Assembly: GCA_937957815.1 (NCBI GenBank)
Contig: CALFXN010000400.1
Coordinates: forward strand, 1-15,135
Direction of reading: 5' to 3'
Length of the DNA stretch: 15,135 nt
From: an uncultured Synergistales bacterium
Lineage (GTDB): Bacteria > Synergistota > Synergistia > Synergistales > Aminobacteriaceae
The notes under the pieces were generated by a model. That model had not been told where the DNA came from. It worked only from the letters and a program-made list of their open reading frames with translations, and did not search any database. Shown piece after piece: positions 1,878-13,697 of the stretch. Each line of letters begins with the position of its first letter. The first letter of the stretch is position 1. A program made the position numbers and the translations under genes.

Positions 1878-1963
1878 ACGGAGCAATTCCGTTCAAGAAC
1901 TTCCTTCCGCCTCGACGTAGAATCTCTTCGAAAGAATATCTTCGGCAGGGGAGGGATCTGCGG

Positions 1964-2920
1964 ATGAAACCGGTACTGCGGAGCGTTCTGGAGGCGATCG
2001 GCGAGACGCCGCTCGTGGAACTCTCGCGGTTTGTCGCCGCGCGGAAGCTCGATGGGAGGATCCTCGCGAAGCTCGAGTATCTCAACCCGGGATTCAGCAA
2101 GAAAGACAGGATCGCGTTGCAGATCATCGACGACGCGGAGCGTTCGGGGGAACTCAAGCCGGGGCAGACCGTCGTCGAACTGACGAGCGGCAACACGGGA
2201 ACGGGGCTTTCGATCGTTTGCGGCGTGCGGGGGTACCCGTTCGTCGCCGTGATGTCGAAGGGGAATTCGATGGAGCGCGCCCGAATGATGGCGGCTCTCG
2301 GGGCCGAGGTGGTCCTCGTCGATCAGGCTCCGGGTTCGATGGTGGGGCAGGTGTCGGGCGACGACCTCGCGCTCGTCGAGCTGCGCGCGCAGGAGCTCGT
2401 CCGCGAACGGAACGCGTTCCGCGCCGATCAGTTCCGCAACCGGGGAAACATCCGGGCGCACGAGCTTCATACGGGCGAGGAGATCTGGGAGCAGTCGGGC
2501 GGAACCGTCGACGCGTTCGCTGATTTCGCGGGGACGGCCGGATCGTTCGTTGGATGCGCGAACGCGCTGCGCCGTCATCGTCCGGGAATGCCGTGCTGGC
2601 TCGTGGAGCCCGAGGGGGCTCCCTACCTCGCCGCGGGCCGCGTCTCGAACCCGAACCATCGTATCCAGGGAGGCGGCTATTCGATGGATCTCCCGTTCCT
2701 CGACGGCCGCGAGGTGACGGGGTTCCTGACGGTTTCCGACGAAGAGGCGATGCGGACGGCGCGGGATCTCGCGAGACTCGAGGGGATCTTCGGAGGATTC
2801 TCTGGCGGCGCGAACGTTGCGGCCGCGGCGAGGCTCCTCGAGGGACCGGCCCGGGGAAAGACCGTCGCGGTGCTGATCTGCGACTCCGGCCTCAAGTACA
2901 TGAGCACGGACCTGTACTGA
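1964..2920 (+). CDS. Cysteine synthase-like PLP-dependent enzyme (fold type II)
   Basis: This 318-residue protein belongs to the cysteine synthase / cystathionine beta-synthase family (beta family of PLP enzymes). The PLP-binding lysine is probably K47 in NPGFSKKDR, and the substrate loop TSGNTG is at 74-79. The phosphate loop reads GTAGSFVG at 190-197 where CysK usually has GTGGT. The stretch GGFSGGANVAAA lies at 277-288, and the C-terminal DSGLKYMSTDLY resembles the GERYLST ending of CysK. The start at 1964 is chosen because AGGGGAGGGA at 1947-1956 gives an ideal ribosome binding site; a frame reaching upstream to 1835 would run through the dctM terminator. The enzyme may make cysteine or act catabolically on cysteine, serine or a related amino acid. 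The changed motifs leave the substrate open. It is monocistronic, bounded by a terminator upstream and an inverted repeat downstream. Confidence 0.85.
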   Translation: MKPVLRSVLEAIGETPLVELSRFVAARKLDGRILAKLEYLNPGFSKKDRIALQIIDDAERSGELKPGQTVVELTSGNTGTGLSIVCGVRGYPFVAVMSKGNSMERARMMAALGAEVVLVDQAPGSMVGQVSGDDLALVELRAQELVRERNAFRADQFRNRGNIRAHELHTGEEIWEQSGGTVDAFADFAGTAGSFVGCANALRRHRPGMPCWLVEPEGAPYLAAGRVSNPNHRIQGGGYSMDLPFLDGREVTGFLTVSDEEAMRTARDLARLEGIFGGFSGGANVAAAARLLEGPARGKTVAVLICDSGLKYMSTDLY

Positions 2921-2930
2921 TCGCGATATG

Positions 2931-2971
2931 CTCCGGGGGATCCGTCGGTAGGGAGAACGGATCCCCCGGAG
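2931..2971. terminator. 15-bp perfect inverted repeat between convergent genes
   Basis: CTCCGGGGGATCCGT at 2931-2945 pairs perfectly with ACGGATCCCCCGGAG at 2957-2971 across an 11-base loop. It lies between two genes that end towards each other, at 2920 and 2996, so it probably stops or protects transcripts from both sides. There is no T run on either strand, so it is not a classical intrinsic terminator; 3' end stabilisation is as likely. Confidence 0.65.
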
Positions 2972-2995
2972 CGGCAAAAGCGCGCGGGATGAATC

Positions 2996-3403
2996 CTATC
3001 GGTCTTCTTCTTCCTGCTGCGCGAGCTGGCCGAGGACGGAGAGCGTGGATATTCCGTTGTCCGTCGTATTCGCCTTGATATCGTTCTCCGTCAGTGCCTG
3101 GAGGAGCTTGTCCGCGGCGGTTTCAACCTTCGAGCCGCACTTGCCGCAGACGATGGCGTTCGCTTCGAGCGTTGCGCCGCAGTTCGCGCACGTGCTCGTC
3201 GCCCCGTCGGAAACACTCCCCGTTCCGCCCGATGCCTGGGTCGCGGCCGTGTTCGCCGTTTTCGACGAACCGGACGATGAAGACGACCCCGCGGCGGCTT
3301 CCTGCTCCGTCGACGTCTTCGTTTTCTCCTCTGTCTCCGAGGTGATCCGGAGCGTGTATTTCGAGTTCGCCTGACTTGAGAGTCCCTGAATCTCCATCGT
3401 CAT
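2996..3403 (-). CDS. Small zinc-ribbon protein of unknown function
   Basis: I do not recognise this 135-residue protein beyond its zinc ribbon. Two CxxC pairs (C72/C75 and C86/C89, within CANCGATLEANAIVCGKCG) would bind one zinc ion. The N-terminal 70 residues are rich in Ser, Thr, Ala and Gly and look disordered, with a run of serines near 40-47. The C-terminal 45 residues (ADKLLQALTENDIKANTTDNG and after) could form a short helix and end in an acidic EEEDR tail. There is no signal peptide or membrane segment, so it is probably cytoplasmic. The start at 3403 is preferred over a second ATG two codons in, because AAGGGAGG lies 8 bases upstream of it. It sits 31 bp behind the gene at 3435-3932 and is probably co-transcribed with it. 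A role in protein or nucleic acid binding would be a guess. Confidence 0.78.
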   Translation of the reverse strand: MTMEIQGLSSQANSKYTLRITSETEEKTKTSTEQEAAAGSSSSSGSSKTANTAATQASGGTGSVSDGATSTCANCGATLEANAIVCGKCGSKVETAADKLLQALTENDIKANTTDNGISTLSVLGQLAQQEEEDR

Positions 3404-3434
3404 CGTCGGTGCCTCCCTTATGATATGTGAGTTT

Positions 3435-3932
3435 CTACGCGCCGAGCGCCTCGTCGATTCTGCTCGTGAGGCTCGCCAGGAGCGCCCCGATCGACGATCC
3501 TCCGTTCAGGTCCTCCGGGGGTTCCGGCGGCATCTGTCCGTTTTTCGGCCCGTACGTTCCGTTCGCGGAGACGGCGAAGTCGTCGTTCTCCTCGGGCGCT
3601 TTCGGCTGGAGCGCGGAAAGGTCTCCGGTTTTTGCGGCCGTCTCGAGATCGTCCGCGAGATTGCCGAGCATCTTCGCGTCCATGCCGGTGGCCGTTTTCG
3701 CCTTCTCGCGGACGTCGTTCGCGAGTTCGGAGACGGTGCTCTTGAAAAGTTCCGGGTCCTTTTCCTGCAACTCCCTGAGTTTGTTCAGAAGTTCGGCGAA
3801 CCGGGAGATCCCAACTTTGTCCCGTTCTCCGTCCGATACCTCTTCGCCGCCCTGCGTCGTTTGCGCGGTGACGTTTCCGACCTGCGATGTCTGTACGGTG
3901 TTCATCGTCGTCGCCATTTCGGAAATACGCAT
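3435..3932 (-). CDS. Hypothetical helical protein, first gene of a two-gene unit
   Basis: I cannot assign a function to this 165-residue protein. It has a Thr/Gln-rich N-terminus (1-35), an amphipathic helical core (about 42-110, with FAELLNKLRELQEKDPELFK and LADDLETAAKTGDLSAL), a Pro/Gly/Asn linker (110-145, including MPPEPPEDLNGG) and a short C-terminal helix (SSIGALLASLTSRIDEALGA). There are no cysteines, signal peptide or membrane segments. The start at 3932 has a strong AAGGAGGG ribbon site at 3939-3946 on the complementary strand, 6 bases away, so the gene is probably well translated. The pattern of a DPELFK-type helix followed by a GDLSAL turn is one I associate with uncharacterised bacterial proteins, but I cannot name a family. 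It precedes the zinc-ribbon gene and diverges from the cpxR-like gene. Confidence 0.75.
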   Translation of the reverse strand: MRISEMATTMNTVQTSQVGNVTAQTTQGGEEVSDGERDKVGISRFAELLNKLRELQEKDPELFKSTVSELANDVREKAKTATGMDAKMLGNLADDLETAAKTGDLSALQPKAPEENDDFAVSANGTYGPKNGQMPPEPPEDLNGGSSIGALLASLTSRIDEALGA

Positions 3933-4196: not shown

Positions 4197-4913
4197 ATGC
4201 GGCGGATTCTCGCGATCGACGACGATGTGGAGCTGTGCGACCTGCTGTCGGCATTCTTTTCGGGCGAGGGGTTTGAATTCCATGCGGTTCACGACGGACT
4301 TTCCGGCATCCGCGAAACCCTGTCGGGAAACTACGACGCGGTGATCCTCGACGTCATGTTGCCCGGGTGCAACGGTTTCGAGGCCTTGCGCGAGATCCGG
4401 AGCAAGAGCAGGGTCCCCGTTCTCATGCTGACGGCGAAGGGGGAGCACGTCGACCGGATCGTCGGACTCGAGATGGGGGCCGATGACTACGTTCCGAAGC
4501 CGTTCAACACCCGGGAGCTCGCGGCGCGCATCCGCGCCGTCCTGCGCAGGACGGAGACGGGGTGCGGCGATGCGGGAACCGTCGAGATCGGAGACCTCGT
4601 CCTCGATACGAAATCGCGTTCCGTGACGATCGCCGGAAAGGCGACTGACCTGACGGGAACCGAGTTCCGGATGCTCGAGCTTCTCATGGCCTCGGCGGGA
4701 GAACTTCTCTCGCTCGACAGGATTTCGCGGGAGGTTCTCGGGCGCAGGCATTCTCCGTTCGACCGGAGCATCGGCGTCCACATCAGCAATATCCGTCGCA
4801 AGATCGGGACCTATCCGGACGAGTCGGAACGGATTCGGAACGTTCGCGGCGAAGGATACGTCTTCGTGTTTCCGGACAGATCCGAGGGCGGGAGGGAGAA
4901 GGAGCAGGTATGA
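4197..4913 (+). CDS. OmpR/CpxR-type response regulator
   Basis: This 238-residue DNA-binding response regulator has a receiver domain (1-115) and a winged-helix output domain (about 130-232). The acidic pocket is D8-D10, the phosphoacceptor is D52 in ILDVMLPG, and the switch residues are T79 and K101 (in KPF). The wording closely follows enterobacterial CpxR, with LDVMLPGCNG, ADDYVPKPFNTRELAARIRAVLRR, LTGTEF, and SPFDRSIGVHISNIRRKIG before the wing RNVRGEGYVF. The start at 4197 is chosen for the GGAGAGGAG site at 4180-4188 and because the receiver begins there; a frame reaching 4056 adds 47 unrelated residues. The stop overlaps the kinase start (ATGA at 4910-4913). It probably answers to envelope stress, by analogy to CpxR, but target genes cannot be read here. 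Confidence 0.93.
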   Translation: MRRILAIDDDVELCDLLSAFFSGEGFEFHAVHDGLSGIRETLSGNYDAVILDVMLPGCNGFEALREIRSKSRVPVLMLTAKGEHVDRIVGLEMGADDYVPKPFNTRELAARIRAVLRRTETGCGDAGTVEIGDLVLDTKSRSVTIAGKATDLTGTEFRMLELLMASAGELLSLDRISREVLGRRHSPFDRSIGVHISNIRRKIGTYPDESERIRNVRGEGYVFVFPDRSEGGREKEQV

Positions 4914-6244
4914 GGAGGCTTTCGCTCTTCTGGAAGGTCTACTTCGGTTTCCTTCTCGCCCTGTTCCTTCCCCTCGCGATCAACGAGGTCATCTTCACGC
5001 TCGACAAGGGCCGTCACGAATTCAATCCCCGCCACAACATCGACAGATTCGTCGGATGGACGGCCTCCTCGCTCGCGAAGGAAGCCGCGGAACTTCTCGA
5101 GCTCGGCCGTGCGGACGAACTCGCGGTGCGTCTCGCAAAGGCGGGCGCGGAGAGCGGGGCCGAGTTCTCCGTGCGCTGCGCGGAAGGCGGCACCAGGCCC
5201 GTCGCCCCGGAGGCGCCGCCTCCCCGGGGCGACGTCGTTTCCGTCGCGGTCCCGTTCGCCGTTTCGGGCGACATCTACGAACTCTCGGCGTTCTTTTCGG
5301 TCTTTCGCGGAAAGCCCCCCCTTCCGCCGCGCAATCCGCTGATGTTTCTGATCCCCATGGGAGTCGGGGCGATATTGTGCTTCGTTCTCGTACGGCATAT
5401 CGTCGCTCCGATACTGGAGCTCCGCGGCGCCACGATGCGCCTCGGACGCGGCGAACTCGCCGCGCGGGTAGGAAATTCGGTGACGGCCAGGGGCGACGAG
5501 ATCGCCGACCTCGGGATGGCTTTCGACGCGATGGCCGAACGCATCGAGGATCTGATCGTTTCGCAGCGGCGGCTCATGGGCGACATATCGCACGAACTCC
5601 GTTCCCCGCTCCAGCGTCTCGACGTGGCGCTGACGCTCGCGCGAAAGGAGATATCGTCCGATGCGGGCGGTTTTCTCGACCGTGCCGGGCGCGAGGCGGA
5701 ACGCGTGAGCGACATGGTCGGCCAGATTCTCAAGCTCTCGGAGGCCGAACTCTGCCCTCCCGACATGCTTCACGGCGTGGTGGACGTTCCGGTGCTGCTG
5801 ACCGAAGTCGCCGAGGACGCCCGGTTCGAGGGGTGCAGCGACGACAAGGGAATCCGGCTCGGGGATATGCCGGGCGACCTCGAAATCCGGGGCGACGACC
5901 ACCTCCTCAGGAGCGCGGTCGAGAACGTCGTCCGCAACGCGCTGCGCGTCACGCCGTCCGGGACGTCGGTCGACGTCGGAGCGGAACGGAGGGGTGAGGA
6001 GATCGTCATCTCCATCAGGGATTACGGTTCCGGATTGCCGGAGAAGGAGCTCTCGAGGATCTTCCGTCCGTTCTACCGCATCGACGCCGCGCGCGACCGG
6101 GAGAGCGGCGGAGTCGGGCTCGGCCTCGCGATCGCGGAGCGGGCCGTCCGCTGCCACGGAGGAACGGTCGTCGCGCGGAACGCGGCCCCGGGCCTTCTCG
6201 TCGAGATCACGCTGCCCGACGGGAACGCGGCCGGAGGGATATAA
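4910..6244 (+). CDS. CpxA-like sensor histidine kinase
   Basis: This 444-residue membrane sensor kinase is the partner of the adjacent response regulator. Helix 1 spans about residues 8-29, the periplasmic sensor region 30-142, and helix 2 144-163. A HAMP linker (164-218) follows, then the H-box DISHELRSPLQRL with the phosphorylated H228. The catalytic domain shows the N-box (HLLRSAVENVVRNALR, N339 and N343), the G1 box DYGSG (371-375), the F-box FRPFYR (385-390) and the G2 box GGVGLGLAI (400-408), so all motifs needed for activity are intact. The periplasmic part is proline-rich near 98-106 and 135-143. H-box and HAMP resemble CpxA. The start is fixed by the ATGA overlap with the regulator gene. 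The stop TAA lies within a TATAAT hexamer that may serve the next frame. Confidence 0.92.
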   Translation: MRRLSLFWKVYFGFLLALFLPLAINEVIFTLDKGRHEFNPRHNIDRFVGWTASSLAKEAAELLELGRADELAVRLAKAGAESGAEFSVRCAEGGTRPVAPEAPPPRGDVVSVAVPFAVSGDIYELSAFFSVFRGKPPLPPRNPLMFLIPMGVGAILCFVLVRHIVAPILELRGATMRLGRGELAARVGNSVTARGDEIADLGMAFDAMAERIEDLIVSQRRLMGDISHELRSPLQRLDVALTLARKEISSDAGGFLDRAGREAERVSDMVGQILKLSEAELCPPDMLHGVVDVPVLLTEVAEDARFEGCSDDKGIRLGDMPGDLEIRGDDHLLRSAVENVVRNALRVTPSGTSVDVGAERRGEEIVISIRDYGSGLPEKELSRIFRPFYRIDAARDRESGGVGLGLAIAERAVRCHGGTVVARNAAPGLLVEITLPDGNAAGGI

Positions 6245-6245: not shown

Positions 6246-6275
6246 CGACACACGTTCCATCGTGGAGGGAGTGTC

Positions 6276-6746
6276 ATGCCGTGGCGGCATCTGGAACATC
6301 CGGCGGACGTTCGGCTCGAGATCGCGGCGGAAAGCCCCGAGGCGCTCGTCGGCGAGTGCTCCCTGGCGTTCTACGACGTCGCGCTCGGCCGACCGCGAAC
6401 CGGTTTCGTCCCGCCGCGGCAGCCCGTCGTCATTCCCGGGAGCATGGGAACCGCGAGCTACGTTCTCGCCGCGGACAGGGGCGCGACCGAATGCTTCTGC
6501 TCGACGTGCCACGGCGCGGGCCGCCGCATGAGCCGCGGCGCGGCGCTGAGGGCTTCGGACCCGGAGGCCCTGATGCGGCGTATGGAGGATCGCGGGATTC
6601 TGGTCCGGACCGACAACCTGCGGACGCTCGGCGAGGAGGCCCCCGAAGCGTACAAGAACGTCGATCGCGTCGTCGATGTCGTCGAACGGGCGGGACTCTG
6701 CCGGAAGGTCGCACGCCTCCGGCCCCTCGGAGTCATCAAGTGGTAG
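6276..6746 (+). pseudogene. In-frame archease N-terminus / RtcB C-terminus chimera
   Basis: This open 156-codon frame joins pieces of two genes. Residues 1 to about 40 (WRHLEHPADVRLEI, then EALVGECSLAFYDV) match the N-terminus of archease, the RtcB activator of about 140 residues. From about residue 49 to the end it is the C-terminus of RtcB, the GTP-dependent RNA 3'-phosphate ligase of about 480 residues: QPVVIPGSMGTASYVL, STCHGAGRRMSR with H79 at the place of the guanylylated histidine, EEAPEAYKNVDRVVDVV and KVARLRPLGVIK. The metal-binding cysteine and histidines of RtcB and the C-terminal half of archease are missing, so neither activity is expected. The final residue is Trp where RtcB normally ends in Gly. 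A single deletion of roughly 1.4 kb across an archease-rtcB pair explains it best. The start has a GGAGGGA site 5 bases upstream, so it may still be translated. Confidence 0.82.
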
Positions 6747-6758
6747 GGCAAAGAGCGC

Positions 6759-7146
6759 TCACGTCGTCCTGAACGGCTGGTCGGCGTGAAGATCCCGCAG
6801 CGTCAGGCAGATTCGCGGCGCGAAGATCTCCGACGGGTCTTTCGGGTCGAAACCGCCGATCTCCGCGATCTTTTCGAGACGGTACGACAGCGTATTCCGG
6901 TGGATTCCGAGCCTCCGCGCCTGCCGCCGGGGTGCGTCGGGGCGAGCAGCCACTCGCGGAGCGTATCATCGAGTTCGCGGCTCCACTGCGGCGAGTCGAA
7001 CAGCCGTCCGATGTTCCTGAGCGAATACTCCCTCGCGGCGTCCCTGTTGAGTGTGAGCAGAAGATCCTCCAGCTCGAAGTCTCCGATGTCGTAGAGGGAC
7101 GTATCCTTCCTGAAATGGCCTGGGCATAGCTTCCGTGGATGTTCAT
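6759..7146 (-). pseudogene. Broken CdaR/PucR-type transcriptional regulator
   Basis: The C-terminal end of a CdaR/PucR-family regulator is visible in two frames on the minus strand. From about 7114 to 6941 one frame reads RKDTSLYDIGDFELEDLLLT, then LREWLLA. From about 6929 to 6759 another frame reads RRLGIHRNTLSYRLEKIAEI, the conserved helix-turn-helix of the family, then a stop. A frameshift must lie between about 6930 and 6941. Upstream, an ATG at 7146 with AAGGGAGG close by (7149-7156, spacing only 2 bases) opens a short frame MNIHGSYAQAISG that could be the original N-terminus. If so, most of the sensory N-terminal part was deleted near 7110. Intact members have about 350-550 residues. 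Relatives control sugar-diacid, purine or amino acid catabolism; what this one controlled is unknown. Confidence 0.72.
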
Positions 7147-7353: not shown

Positions 7354-7437
7354 CACGAAGTGTGAGAATGCGGGATAGTCTCGTTTTATATTCAAAGGTA
7401 CCTTTTCGCGGCGAAACGATCGTTCGTTCGCGGGCGC

Positions 7438-7578
7438 GTGCGAATCATTCCCGTGAAGGATCTAATCGAGCCGCGATGCAAGCTCGAAGGAAAGGGCGAG
7501 TGCTTCCCCGGTTTCATCGGAGGATCGGAGACGGTCGGAAACGGGGCGACGCTGGTCCTCAAGGGGGCCGCGGTCGTC
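7438..7578 (+). pseudogene. Fragment like glycine/sarcosine/betaine reductase component B (GrdE type)
   Basis: About 47 codons read RIIPVKDLIEPRCKLEGKG, then CFPGFIGGSETVGNGATLVL and KGAAVV. This matches the part of GrdE-type reductase subunits that begins near residue 60, with its VRI-PVKD-IEPR and FPGF...VG-G-T-VLKG-AVV pattern, as I remember the family. The N-terminal segment with the family's usual opening is absent, and the match stops after KGAAVV, where intact proteins continue for about 350 residues. The reading frame runs on to 7746 but without similarity I can name. Such reductases ferment glycine, sarcosine, betaine or proline in strict anaerobes. This is a relic, not a working subunit. 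Assignment rests on remembered motifs. Confidence 0.55.
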
Positions 7579-7736
7579 GAGAAGGAGGAATACGAAACCG
7601 CGCTCCGCGACGCGGCGATCGACCGGACGGATGTGTACGAAATGGCGGACAGCGTCGAAGGCAAGGCGGCCGAATGCGGACATGACGCCCGAAATGAACG
7701 CGTACGTGTCCTGCGGCGACATCTGCACGGCGGCGC
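7579..7736 (+). other. Unassigned coding-like remnant between two gene fragments
   Basis: In frame with the reductase fragment, codons 7579-7674 read EKEEYETALRDAAIDRTDVY and EMADSVEGKAAE, which has the composition of a real protein. Around 7675 the sense-like reading moves to another frame (DMTPEMNAYVSCGDICTAAQ, about 7676-7737). I recognise neither piece. They look like parts of one or two genes joined by deletion and frameshift. Confidence 0.35.
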
Positions 7737-7829
7737 AGCGGCGTGAGGCGCGTCTTTCGCGTCTCGTCGATCACGGGGGAAGGGCTCGACGCGCTCCGCG
7801 CGTTTCTGCGCGAACGGCGTGAGTCATAG
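7737..7829 (+). pseudogene. C-terminal remnant of a small P-loop GTPase
   Basis: A frame ending at TAG 7827-7829 reads SGVRRVFRVSSITGEGLDAL then RAFLRERRES. The VSSITGEGLDAL pattern is the G5 (SA-type) guanine-specificity loop followed by the last helix, as seen at the end of HypB, EutP and similar GTPases. The P-loop and the NKxD motif are absent, and the sequence upstream in this frame is not protein-like, so only the tail remains. Which GTPase it was cannot be decided from 28 residues. Confidence 0.4.
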
Positions 7830-7888: not shown

Positions 7889-8530
7889 TCAAGGGCGGCC
7901 GGCGCAGTCGTCCCAGAAGCGGCGTTCGAGCGATGCCGCTTCGGAAAAGATGCTCCGGAGCCGTTTCCCGGCGACGCCGTCGAGCGACGGGATCGCCCCG
8001 TCGAGCCACGCGAGCGTGTCGTCGACGAGAGCGCCGTATTCGTCTCCGCCGTATGTTGCGAACCACTCTGCGTACGCGGCCGGAATGTGCGAGCGGATGC
8101 GCCCCTCGTACCGCGCGGCGATCTCCCGGTAGCTTGCGATGCAGGGCGTCATCGAAACGAGGATCGCGGTCGCGTCCCCTTCCATCGCGATCCGGAGCAG
8201 GAAGGCCTCGTACGCGAGCGCGGCGTCGCAGACCTCGAGACCCTCCGTGGCGTCTCTTCCAATGAGGTCATCGTGCATCTCCAGTTCTCCCGAGAGCGTC
8301 CCCGCGAGAAGGCGAACCCCCAGACGCCGCGCCGGGCGGTCCGGCGCCCTCGAGACGAACGCCCCCATGCAGCGGAGAAGAACGTCGAGATAGTAGTCGT
8401 CCTGGCGGAGATAGAACCGGAATGTCTCCGGCCGGAGCGTTCCGTCCGCCATCGACGAGACGAACGGATGGGCCAGGAGCCTCTCCCATTCGTCTGCAAC
8501 GGAATCGCGCAGCGTTTCGAATACGGTCAT
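7889..8530 (-). CDS. tenA: TenA/THI-4 family protein (thiaminase II, aminopyrimidine aminohydrolase)
   Basis: This 213-residue all-helical protein belongs to the TenA family. TenA hydrolyses aminopyrimidine breakdown products of thiamine to the hydroxymethylpyrimidine used for thiamine salvage, and some members also cleave thiamine. Expected active-site residues are present: D44 and Y47 in RQDDYYLDV, Y107 in LAYEAFLL, the nucleophile C130 in SMTPCIASYREIA, and E202 in SLERRFWDD. The length is near the usual 220-235. The start at 8530 has an AGGGAGG site 7 bases upstream on its strand. It follows the MFS gene by 28 bp and is probably on the same transcript. No TPP riboswitch was seen ahead of the pair. 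No other thiamine gene lies nearby, so a salvage role with the MFS protein as partner is only an inference. Confidence 0.88.
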   Translation of the reverse strand: MTVFETLRDSVADEWERLLAHPFVSSMADGTLRPETFRFYLRQDDYYLDVLLRCMGAFVSRAPDRPARRLGVRLLAGTLSGELEMHDDLIGRDATEGLEVCDAALAYEAFLLRIAMEGDATAILVSMTPCIASYREIAARYEGRIRSHIPAAYAEWFATYGGDEYGALVDDTLAWLDGAIPSLDGVAGKRLRSIFSEAASLERRFWDDCAGRP

Positions 8531-12968: not shown

Positions 12969-13697
12969 ATGGCGGGGTCGGGAATCGTCGTCGAGGGGCT
13001 CCGGAAGCGATACGGCTCCGGAGAGACTGCGGTCGACGCGCTCCAGGGCGTCGACATGCAGGTCGGGGCGGGGGAGGTCGTCGGTCTGATCGGCCCGTCG
13101 GGATCGGGGAAGAGCACGCTCCTCAAGTGTCTCGGGGCCGTGATCGAACCGACTTCGGGGCGCATCCGTCTCGGCGACGAAACGATATTCGACGGCGGAT
13201 GGACGATCCGGGATCTCCGGGCGCTCCGCCGGGACTATATCGGGTTCATCTTCCAGGCGCCGTATCTGATCCCGTTTCTCGATGTGACGGACAACGTGGC
13301 GTTGCTTCCGATGCTTGCCGGACGGCCGAACGGGGAGGCGCGCAACCGGGCGCGGGAGCTTCTCGAGGCGCTCGGGTGCGCGCACCGGGCATCGGCGATG
13401 CCGGCGACGCTCTCGGGGGGCGAACAGCAGCGGGTCGCCATCGCCCGCGCGCTCGCGAACCGGCCGCCGATCGTCCTCGCGGACGAACCGACCGCTCCGC
13501 TCGACGGCGAGCGGGCGCTCGCCGTCATCGGCATCCTGAACGCGATGGCCCGGAAGTACGAAACGGCGATCATCGTAGTGACGCACGACGAAAAGATCAT
13601 CCCGACCTTCCGGAGGATCTACAGGATCAGGGACGGAATGACCGTCGAAGAGGCTGGGGAAGGGCGGATTCCCGGAGCGAGCGCCGGGGGGCGCTGA
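12969..13697 (+). CDS. ABC transporter ATP-binding protein, LolD/MacB/DevA type
   Basis: This 242-residue ATPase powers the permease encoded just before it. All catalytic motifs are intact: Walker [10 protein letters not shown] (42-50), Q-loop Q96 in [17 protein letters not shown], signature [15 protein letters not shown] (148-162), Walker B IVLADEP with catalytic E173, D-loop PLDGE (177-181) and switch H206 in VTHD. The D-loop reads APLDGE where ANLDS or SALDS is common, a mild change. The start codon at 12969 follows the permease stop by one base. The gene ends the operon 29 bp from the end of the convergent HD-GYP gene, and I found no clear terminator hairpin in that gap. Confidence 0.93.

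Follow-up and report, generated by a model that had tools for sequence, protein, structure and literature searches.

Organization of the locus

The window (the whole stretch of 15,135 nucleotides analyzed) carries an open frame that begins as archease and ends as the C-terminus of RtcB (Table 1). The preliminary description had read it this way, with RtcB from about codon 49 and no stop in between, and we obtained family matches for residues 3-37 and 48-155, respectively. Comparing both parts with family profiles, as it had proposed, gave a strong match for RtcB and, for archease, one below the curated cut-off (21.4 versus 25 bits), the second of three Pfam families listed for the frame at E up to 1. 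NCBIfam also places RtcB families at about residues 48-155, and the top-scoring RtcB chains of the PDB cover the same residues at about 1e-32. By its sequence, this half is RtcB beyond doubt. For the other half, a profile built from 23 control archease loci scored 14.0 bits over residues 3-36, and the NCBIfam entry PRK00407, named 'hypothetical protein' and which we take to be archease-like, matched residues 2-36 weakly (12.5 bits, E 0.12). Modest by score, the archease half is nevertheless credible because of its RtcB partner and the usual order of the archease and rtcB genes. The intact frame, the retained H79 and the good ribosome-binding site of the earlier description all hold, and the codon-position G+C of the frame is ordinary.

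Table 1. Features of the chimeric frame and its surroundings (positions in the window)
Feature	Position	Strand	Details
Sensor histidine kinase, uninterrupted frame	4910..6244	+	HATPase_c, HAMP, HisKA; 31 nt upstream of the chimera
GGAGG ribosome-binding site	6264..6268	+	7 nt 5' of the ATG; read from the sequence
Archease::RtcB chimeric reading frame	6276..6746	+	156 aa, ATG to TAG, no internal stop
Archease 5' part, codons 1-48	6276..6419	+	PF01951 (hmmscan, Pfam), residues 3-37, 21.4 bits, E 3.5e-4, profile 1-35 of 136
Putative deletion junction	6408..6425	+	Placed within a few codons from HMM match ends and alignment with full RtcB
RtcB 3' part, codons 48-156	6417..6743	+	PF01139 (hmmscan, Pfam), residues 48-155, 130.9 bits, E 9.7e-38, profile 318-425 of 426; PDB alignments; H79 kept
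PucR C-terminal HTH remnant	6762..6965	-	PF13556, E 5.8e-13, match from profile position 17 of 59
Glycine/sarcosine/betaine reductase component B scrap	7366..7743	+	PF09338, E 3.6e-18, match 7435-7623, profile 56-117 of 426
Possible EutP/PduV C-terminal scrap	7698..7826	+	PF10662, E 0.006, weak, below cut-off
TenA family gene, uninterrupted frame	7889..8530	-	PF03070, E 4e-29; marks the far end of the decayed region

The chimera opens a series of broken genes that spans about 1.55 kb, with further remnants in the 1.1 kb after it. What precedes the PucR remnant apparently lies, by eye, in another frame, which has no Pfam match. These remnants just downstream support the view that the chimera itself is decaying. 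Upstream, the regulator is open over its length, like the kinase. When the kinase was used as query against genome contigs, 64 loci were retrieved with no close relative among them; by title they are mostly Acidobacteriota and Pseudomonadota, and the nearest, from Acidobacteriota, reaches at most 48% identity in its best segment. Megablast of the window against plasmids returned two records that align to it over about 100 bases each, near 13400-13510. Elsewhere in the window, a small protein with a zinc ribbon (2996-3403, minus strand; PF13240 just over cut-off) lies beside a 165-residue frame (3435-3932) with no significant family.

Among the records listed by literature searches on archease, RtcB, fusion, operon and pseudogene, no title or abstract start describes the chimera, and a search on RtcB in Synergistetes found nothing.

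Gene order in control genomes and size of the deletion

As controls we used the 77 genomes with archease among 199 sampled from the phylum of genome G004 (reached from locus L014, titled Terriglobia), which is likely a phylum other than that of the window's host (Synergistota). Each genome contributed one locus in views of up to 3 kb, some of them ended by contig ends. The script found rtcB downstream of archease on the same strand in 49 of the 77 loci (50 with L078, which was mis-filed), upstream in 5, and nowhere in view in 22. Joined in the same way, these loci would lose a median of 1412 bp (range 402-1588; 29 of 45 loci measurable), the minimum coming from L107, whose own RtcB is eroded. 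Both results agree with the preliminary description, according to which the two genes are often adjacent and a single in-frame deletion of about 1.4 kb would create the frame: archease followed by rtcB is the commonest order, and the expected loss has the proposed size.

The window holds remnants of both neighbors, in their usual order and joined at one point. The ancestor would have been an archease-rtcB operon lying downstream of a two-component system. A single deletion of about 1.4 kb, from about codon 48 of archease to about codon 368 of rtcB, would have removed the rest, and its ends would have been rejoined in frame by chance, leaving a pseudogene, probably young, inside some 1.55 kb of local decay. 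To the observed domain matches, neighboring remnants and second copy (see below), this model adds an intact ancestor, a single deletion and a loss of function, all of which we infer. On these sequence data, we consider it highly probable that the chimera is an in-frame deletion pseudogene of the archease-rtcB pair, with neither archease nor ligase activity. It looks like ordinary gene decay and not like a new protein.

The in-frame outcome would be more natural if the chimera derived by internal deletion from a gene that already encoded a full-length archease-RtcB fusion. Such an ancestor is scarcely credible, as none of the best 120 of 7,054 RtcB matches carries an archease domain in the precomputed domain column (these 120 measure 267-491 residues, 110 of them 440 or more), and no open frame holds both archease and RtcB in the 77 control loci. 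The idea had been prompted by six control archease frames of 599-948 residues, in which RtcB turned out to lie in a different frame.

Two published cases are close to the proposed event. According to excerpts of PMC1586002, a deletion of about 1,000 nucleotides in Escherichia coli K-12 runs from within an rtcB-like gene into prfH, so that the upstream stop, the downstream start and large parts of both neighbors are gone. In that pair, the upstream gene is the rtcB-like one and a release factor is its partner, whereas in the window archease is upstream and, unlike the K-12 remnant as described in those excerpts, the product of the join is one open frame. By analogy, the chimera seems to record an event of this kind in a different gene pair. 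The archease-rtcB operon described in the available part of PMC3973293 provides the gene neighborhood of the presumed ancestor; it encodes two complete proteins, in contrast to the 156-residue scrap of the window. The chimera shows how a co-operating gene pair may vanish in one step and leave behind a small gene that looks plausible.

Three control loci (L107, L134 and L138) have an RtcB that is broken or partly missing beside archease, although the view was long enough, which indicates that erosion of RtcB is not rare. The remnant in L107 (1858-2208, minus strand) matches only profile positions 337-380 and 409-478 and directly follows a complete archease. Other unusual archease genes were seen among the controls. 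L098 carries an archease fragment (1959-2204, minus strand; profile 3-36 only, in an 82-residue frame) with no RtcB in view. L112, from genome G097, shows two tandem archease frames of 166 residues and equal score before one rtcB (2383-3435, plus strand), which may be either a duplication or an assembly repeat.

A second copy of the chimera

The same junction is present on another contig. The public protein cluster P0002 (three members drawn from Logan and ENA, on contigs of up to 10149 bases) is identical to the chimera of the window at 155 of 156 residues, the sole difference being the final residue, which is Gly in the cluster and Trp in the window. When residues 1-48 of the chimera alone were used as query, P0002 was the only match at E up to 1 among three candidates. 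The terminal Trp of the window copy may be either a variant or an error, and since P0002 ends in Gly it is no mark of the chimera as such. The preliminary description had taken this Trp, together with the loss of the metal-binding part, as a sign of decay. The argument from Trp falls with P0002, while decay gains support from the gene remnants downstream.

The second copy also bears on the possibility that the genome has an intact gene pair and that the assembler skipped 1.4 kb. Because P0002 carries the same chimera, a one-off collapse in the assembly of the window is unlikely. The neighboring broken genes would moreover require separate errors. The two copies differ in the residue of the last codon, which speaks for a faulty assembly, as does the chance that P0002 comes from the window's own sample; the window protein may even be a member of the cluster. 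Overall, we judge a collapse very unlikely.

Relatives of the RtcB part and a similar join in another lineage

Among the best 120 of 1,694 matches to the chimera, archease was detected at E 0.01 or better only in P0002 and in P0034, a protein of 220 residues from a Logan contig of 1510 bases. P0034 resembles the chimera in having an archease start joined in frame to an RtcB end. It differs in its junction, with archease over residues 3-84 and RtcB from residue 91-92, and in its lineage. A tree built from the last 108 residues of 36 rows groups P0034 with P0145, P0051 and a Solirubrobacterales RtcB in a supported clade (98/93), apart from the clade (99/91) formed by the window copy (P0001) and P0002. 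This suggests that archease-RtcB joins arose at least twice and hence recur, provided that the 1510-base contig behind P0034 can be trusted. Within a poorly resolved group, the chimera pair sits on a stem branch of 0.27, as compared to end branches of 0.033 for P0122 and 0.12 for P0129; its greater length fits either drift or mere distance.

The best-scoring full-length RtcB matches with a name come from Acetomicrobium (Synergistota) at 59-62% identity. Unnamed full-length matches rank above them (67-74% identity), and named matches from other phyla score only slightly below. Set against these and against the Acidobacteriota loci nearest to the kinase, the Acetomicrobium matches lend a host in Synergistota weak support. 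A search for RtcB in viral contigs gave two loci at 28-30% identity, which were left aside. A further close relative, P0127 (286 residues, contig of 205406 bases), has an N-terminus that by eye continues in another frame, so that the gene is either frameshifted or mis-sequenced.

Conservation and predicted function of the join

We measured how far the RtcB part departs from conserved columns, using as reference 238 other RtcB rows, which are best matches, many of them closely related, and include P0034. At columns conserved at 98%, P0002 breaks none of 32 and the window copy breaks one (the final Trp), while 25 of the 238 rows break at least one. At 95%, the window copy breaks 2 of 37 columns, as many or more being broken in only 18 of 238 rows, and P0002 breaks 1, a level reached by 51 rows. 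At 80%, the window copy breaks 4 of 51 columns (57 of 238 rows). From the absence of changes in the 32 columns of P0002, at most about 9% change can have accumulated after constraint was lost. Constraint on the chimera may either have ended recently or still continue. Selection on the frame is possible, because the frame is intact, the ribosome-binding site is good, the codon-position G+C is ordinary and conservation of the RtcB part is high.

The chimera lacks homology to the whole RtcB family, since it covers only profile positions 318-425 of 426 in PF01139. Its RtcB part aligns from residue 398 of the human chains, or residue 372 of 1uc2, onwards. Excerpts of PMC10944509 list D119, C122, H227, H259 and H353 as metal ligands of human RTCB and report that mutating any of them impairs guanylylation. 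As the alignment starts only at human residue 398, all five are missing, in agreement with the statement in the preliminary description that the metal-binding part of RtcB is gone.

The guanylylated His and the conserved C-terminal Lys are present, H79 and K155 of the chimera being invariant columns. Counted in the printed alignment, H79 corresponds to H404 of 1uc2 (PhRtcB), which is presumably equivalent to human H428. Human RTCB is guanylylated at H428, according to the same excerpts (PMC10944509). For archease, the available part of PMC3973293 reports that the Pyrococcus horikoshii protein needs D12, D141, the I142 terminus, His9 and Lys117. By motif, the chimera keeps H8 and D11 of the HxxD start; the C-terminal positions fall beyond the junction, and with most of archease gone the metal site and its neighbors are incomplete. 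From these losses, the product is predicted neither to activate nor to ligate. Annotation calls for caution here, as RNA ligase activity does not follow from an RtcB label when the protein has some 150 residues.

The chimera could still be a small protein in which selection keeps the C-terminal fold of RtcB, for example to bind a guanine nucleotide, RtcB or archease. The intact frame with its ribosome-binding site, the 32 unbroken columns of P0002 and the similar join of P0034 speak for such a role, and so does the AlphaFold2 model (37 sequences), in which the blocks of the RtcB part have mean pLDDT of 75-94, except for residues 71-80. Residues 1-47 are below pLDDT 50, which counts little against it because few alignment rows cover them. 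The loss of the metal ligands, the decaying genes that adjoin the chimera and the rarity of archease among the relatives (2 of the best 120 of 1,694 at E up to 0.01, one of them the same gene) weigh more heavily, and we regard a retained protein as unlikely. Bolder still is the idea that chimeras of archease and the RtcB C-terminus recur and that some lineages keep them as short translated proteins acting through the guanine-nucleotide or partner surface, for instance as a decoy that regulates a second RtcB; we see this as a long shot. Decay after an in-frame deletion is the reading that we prefer.

Candidate selenocysteine RtcB genes in the control phylum

An observation outside the window, and more novel than the chimera, concerns RtcB genes of the G004 phylum (loci L072, L074, L075, L076, L092, L096, L129 and L150-L161). 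Among the 52 catalytic-motif sites of RtcB in the 77 control loci, 45 encode Cys and 7 an in-frame TGA; TAA and TAG were never found. In a pattern search, the TGA form at the metal-binding Cys (GYDIN-TGA-GVR) was detected in 12 of 396 genomes of the phylum, with no hit in the reversed control. Eleven of the 12 genes match RtcB to the end when read on, and the remaining one is truncated in the available sequence.

A hairpin with a GGTC loop, located about 17-35 nucleotides after the TGA, is common to 8 of the 12 genes. In three more, a stem of 6-8 pairs with another sequence occupies this position, and in L159 the script preferred another hairpin. Hairpins with a GGT loop and 5 or more pairs occur in 5 of 7 TGA loci as compared to 2 of 45 Cys loci. 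When the register was fixed, some stem columns paired in all 12 genes, with changed pairs, and others in only 8. SelB scored above cut-off in all 7 of the 12 TGA genomes that were tested and in 24 of 38 Cys genomes (chance 0.058). The TGA, and the SECIS-like hairpin that follows it in most of them, make these genes candidates for a natural selenocysteine RtcB. Such a protein was absent from the titles and abstract starts listed by our literature searches, one of which covered 15 of 68 records. In excerpts of PMC4150793, a laboratory-made Sec98 at the same Cys of P. horikoshii RtcB is reported to have caused cleavage of the protein.
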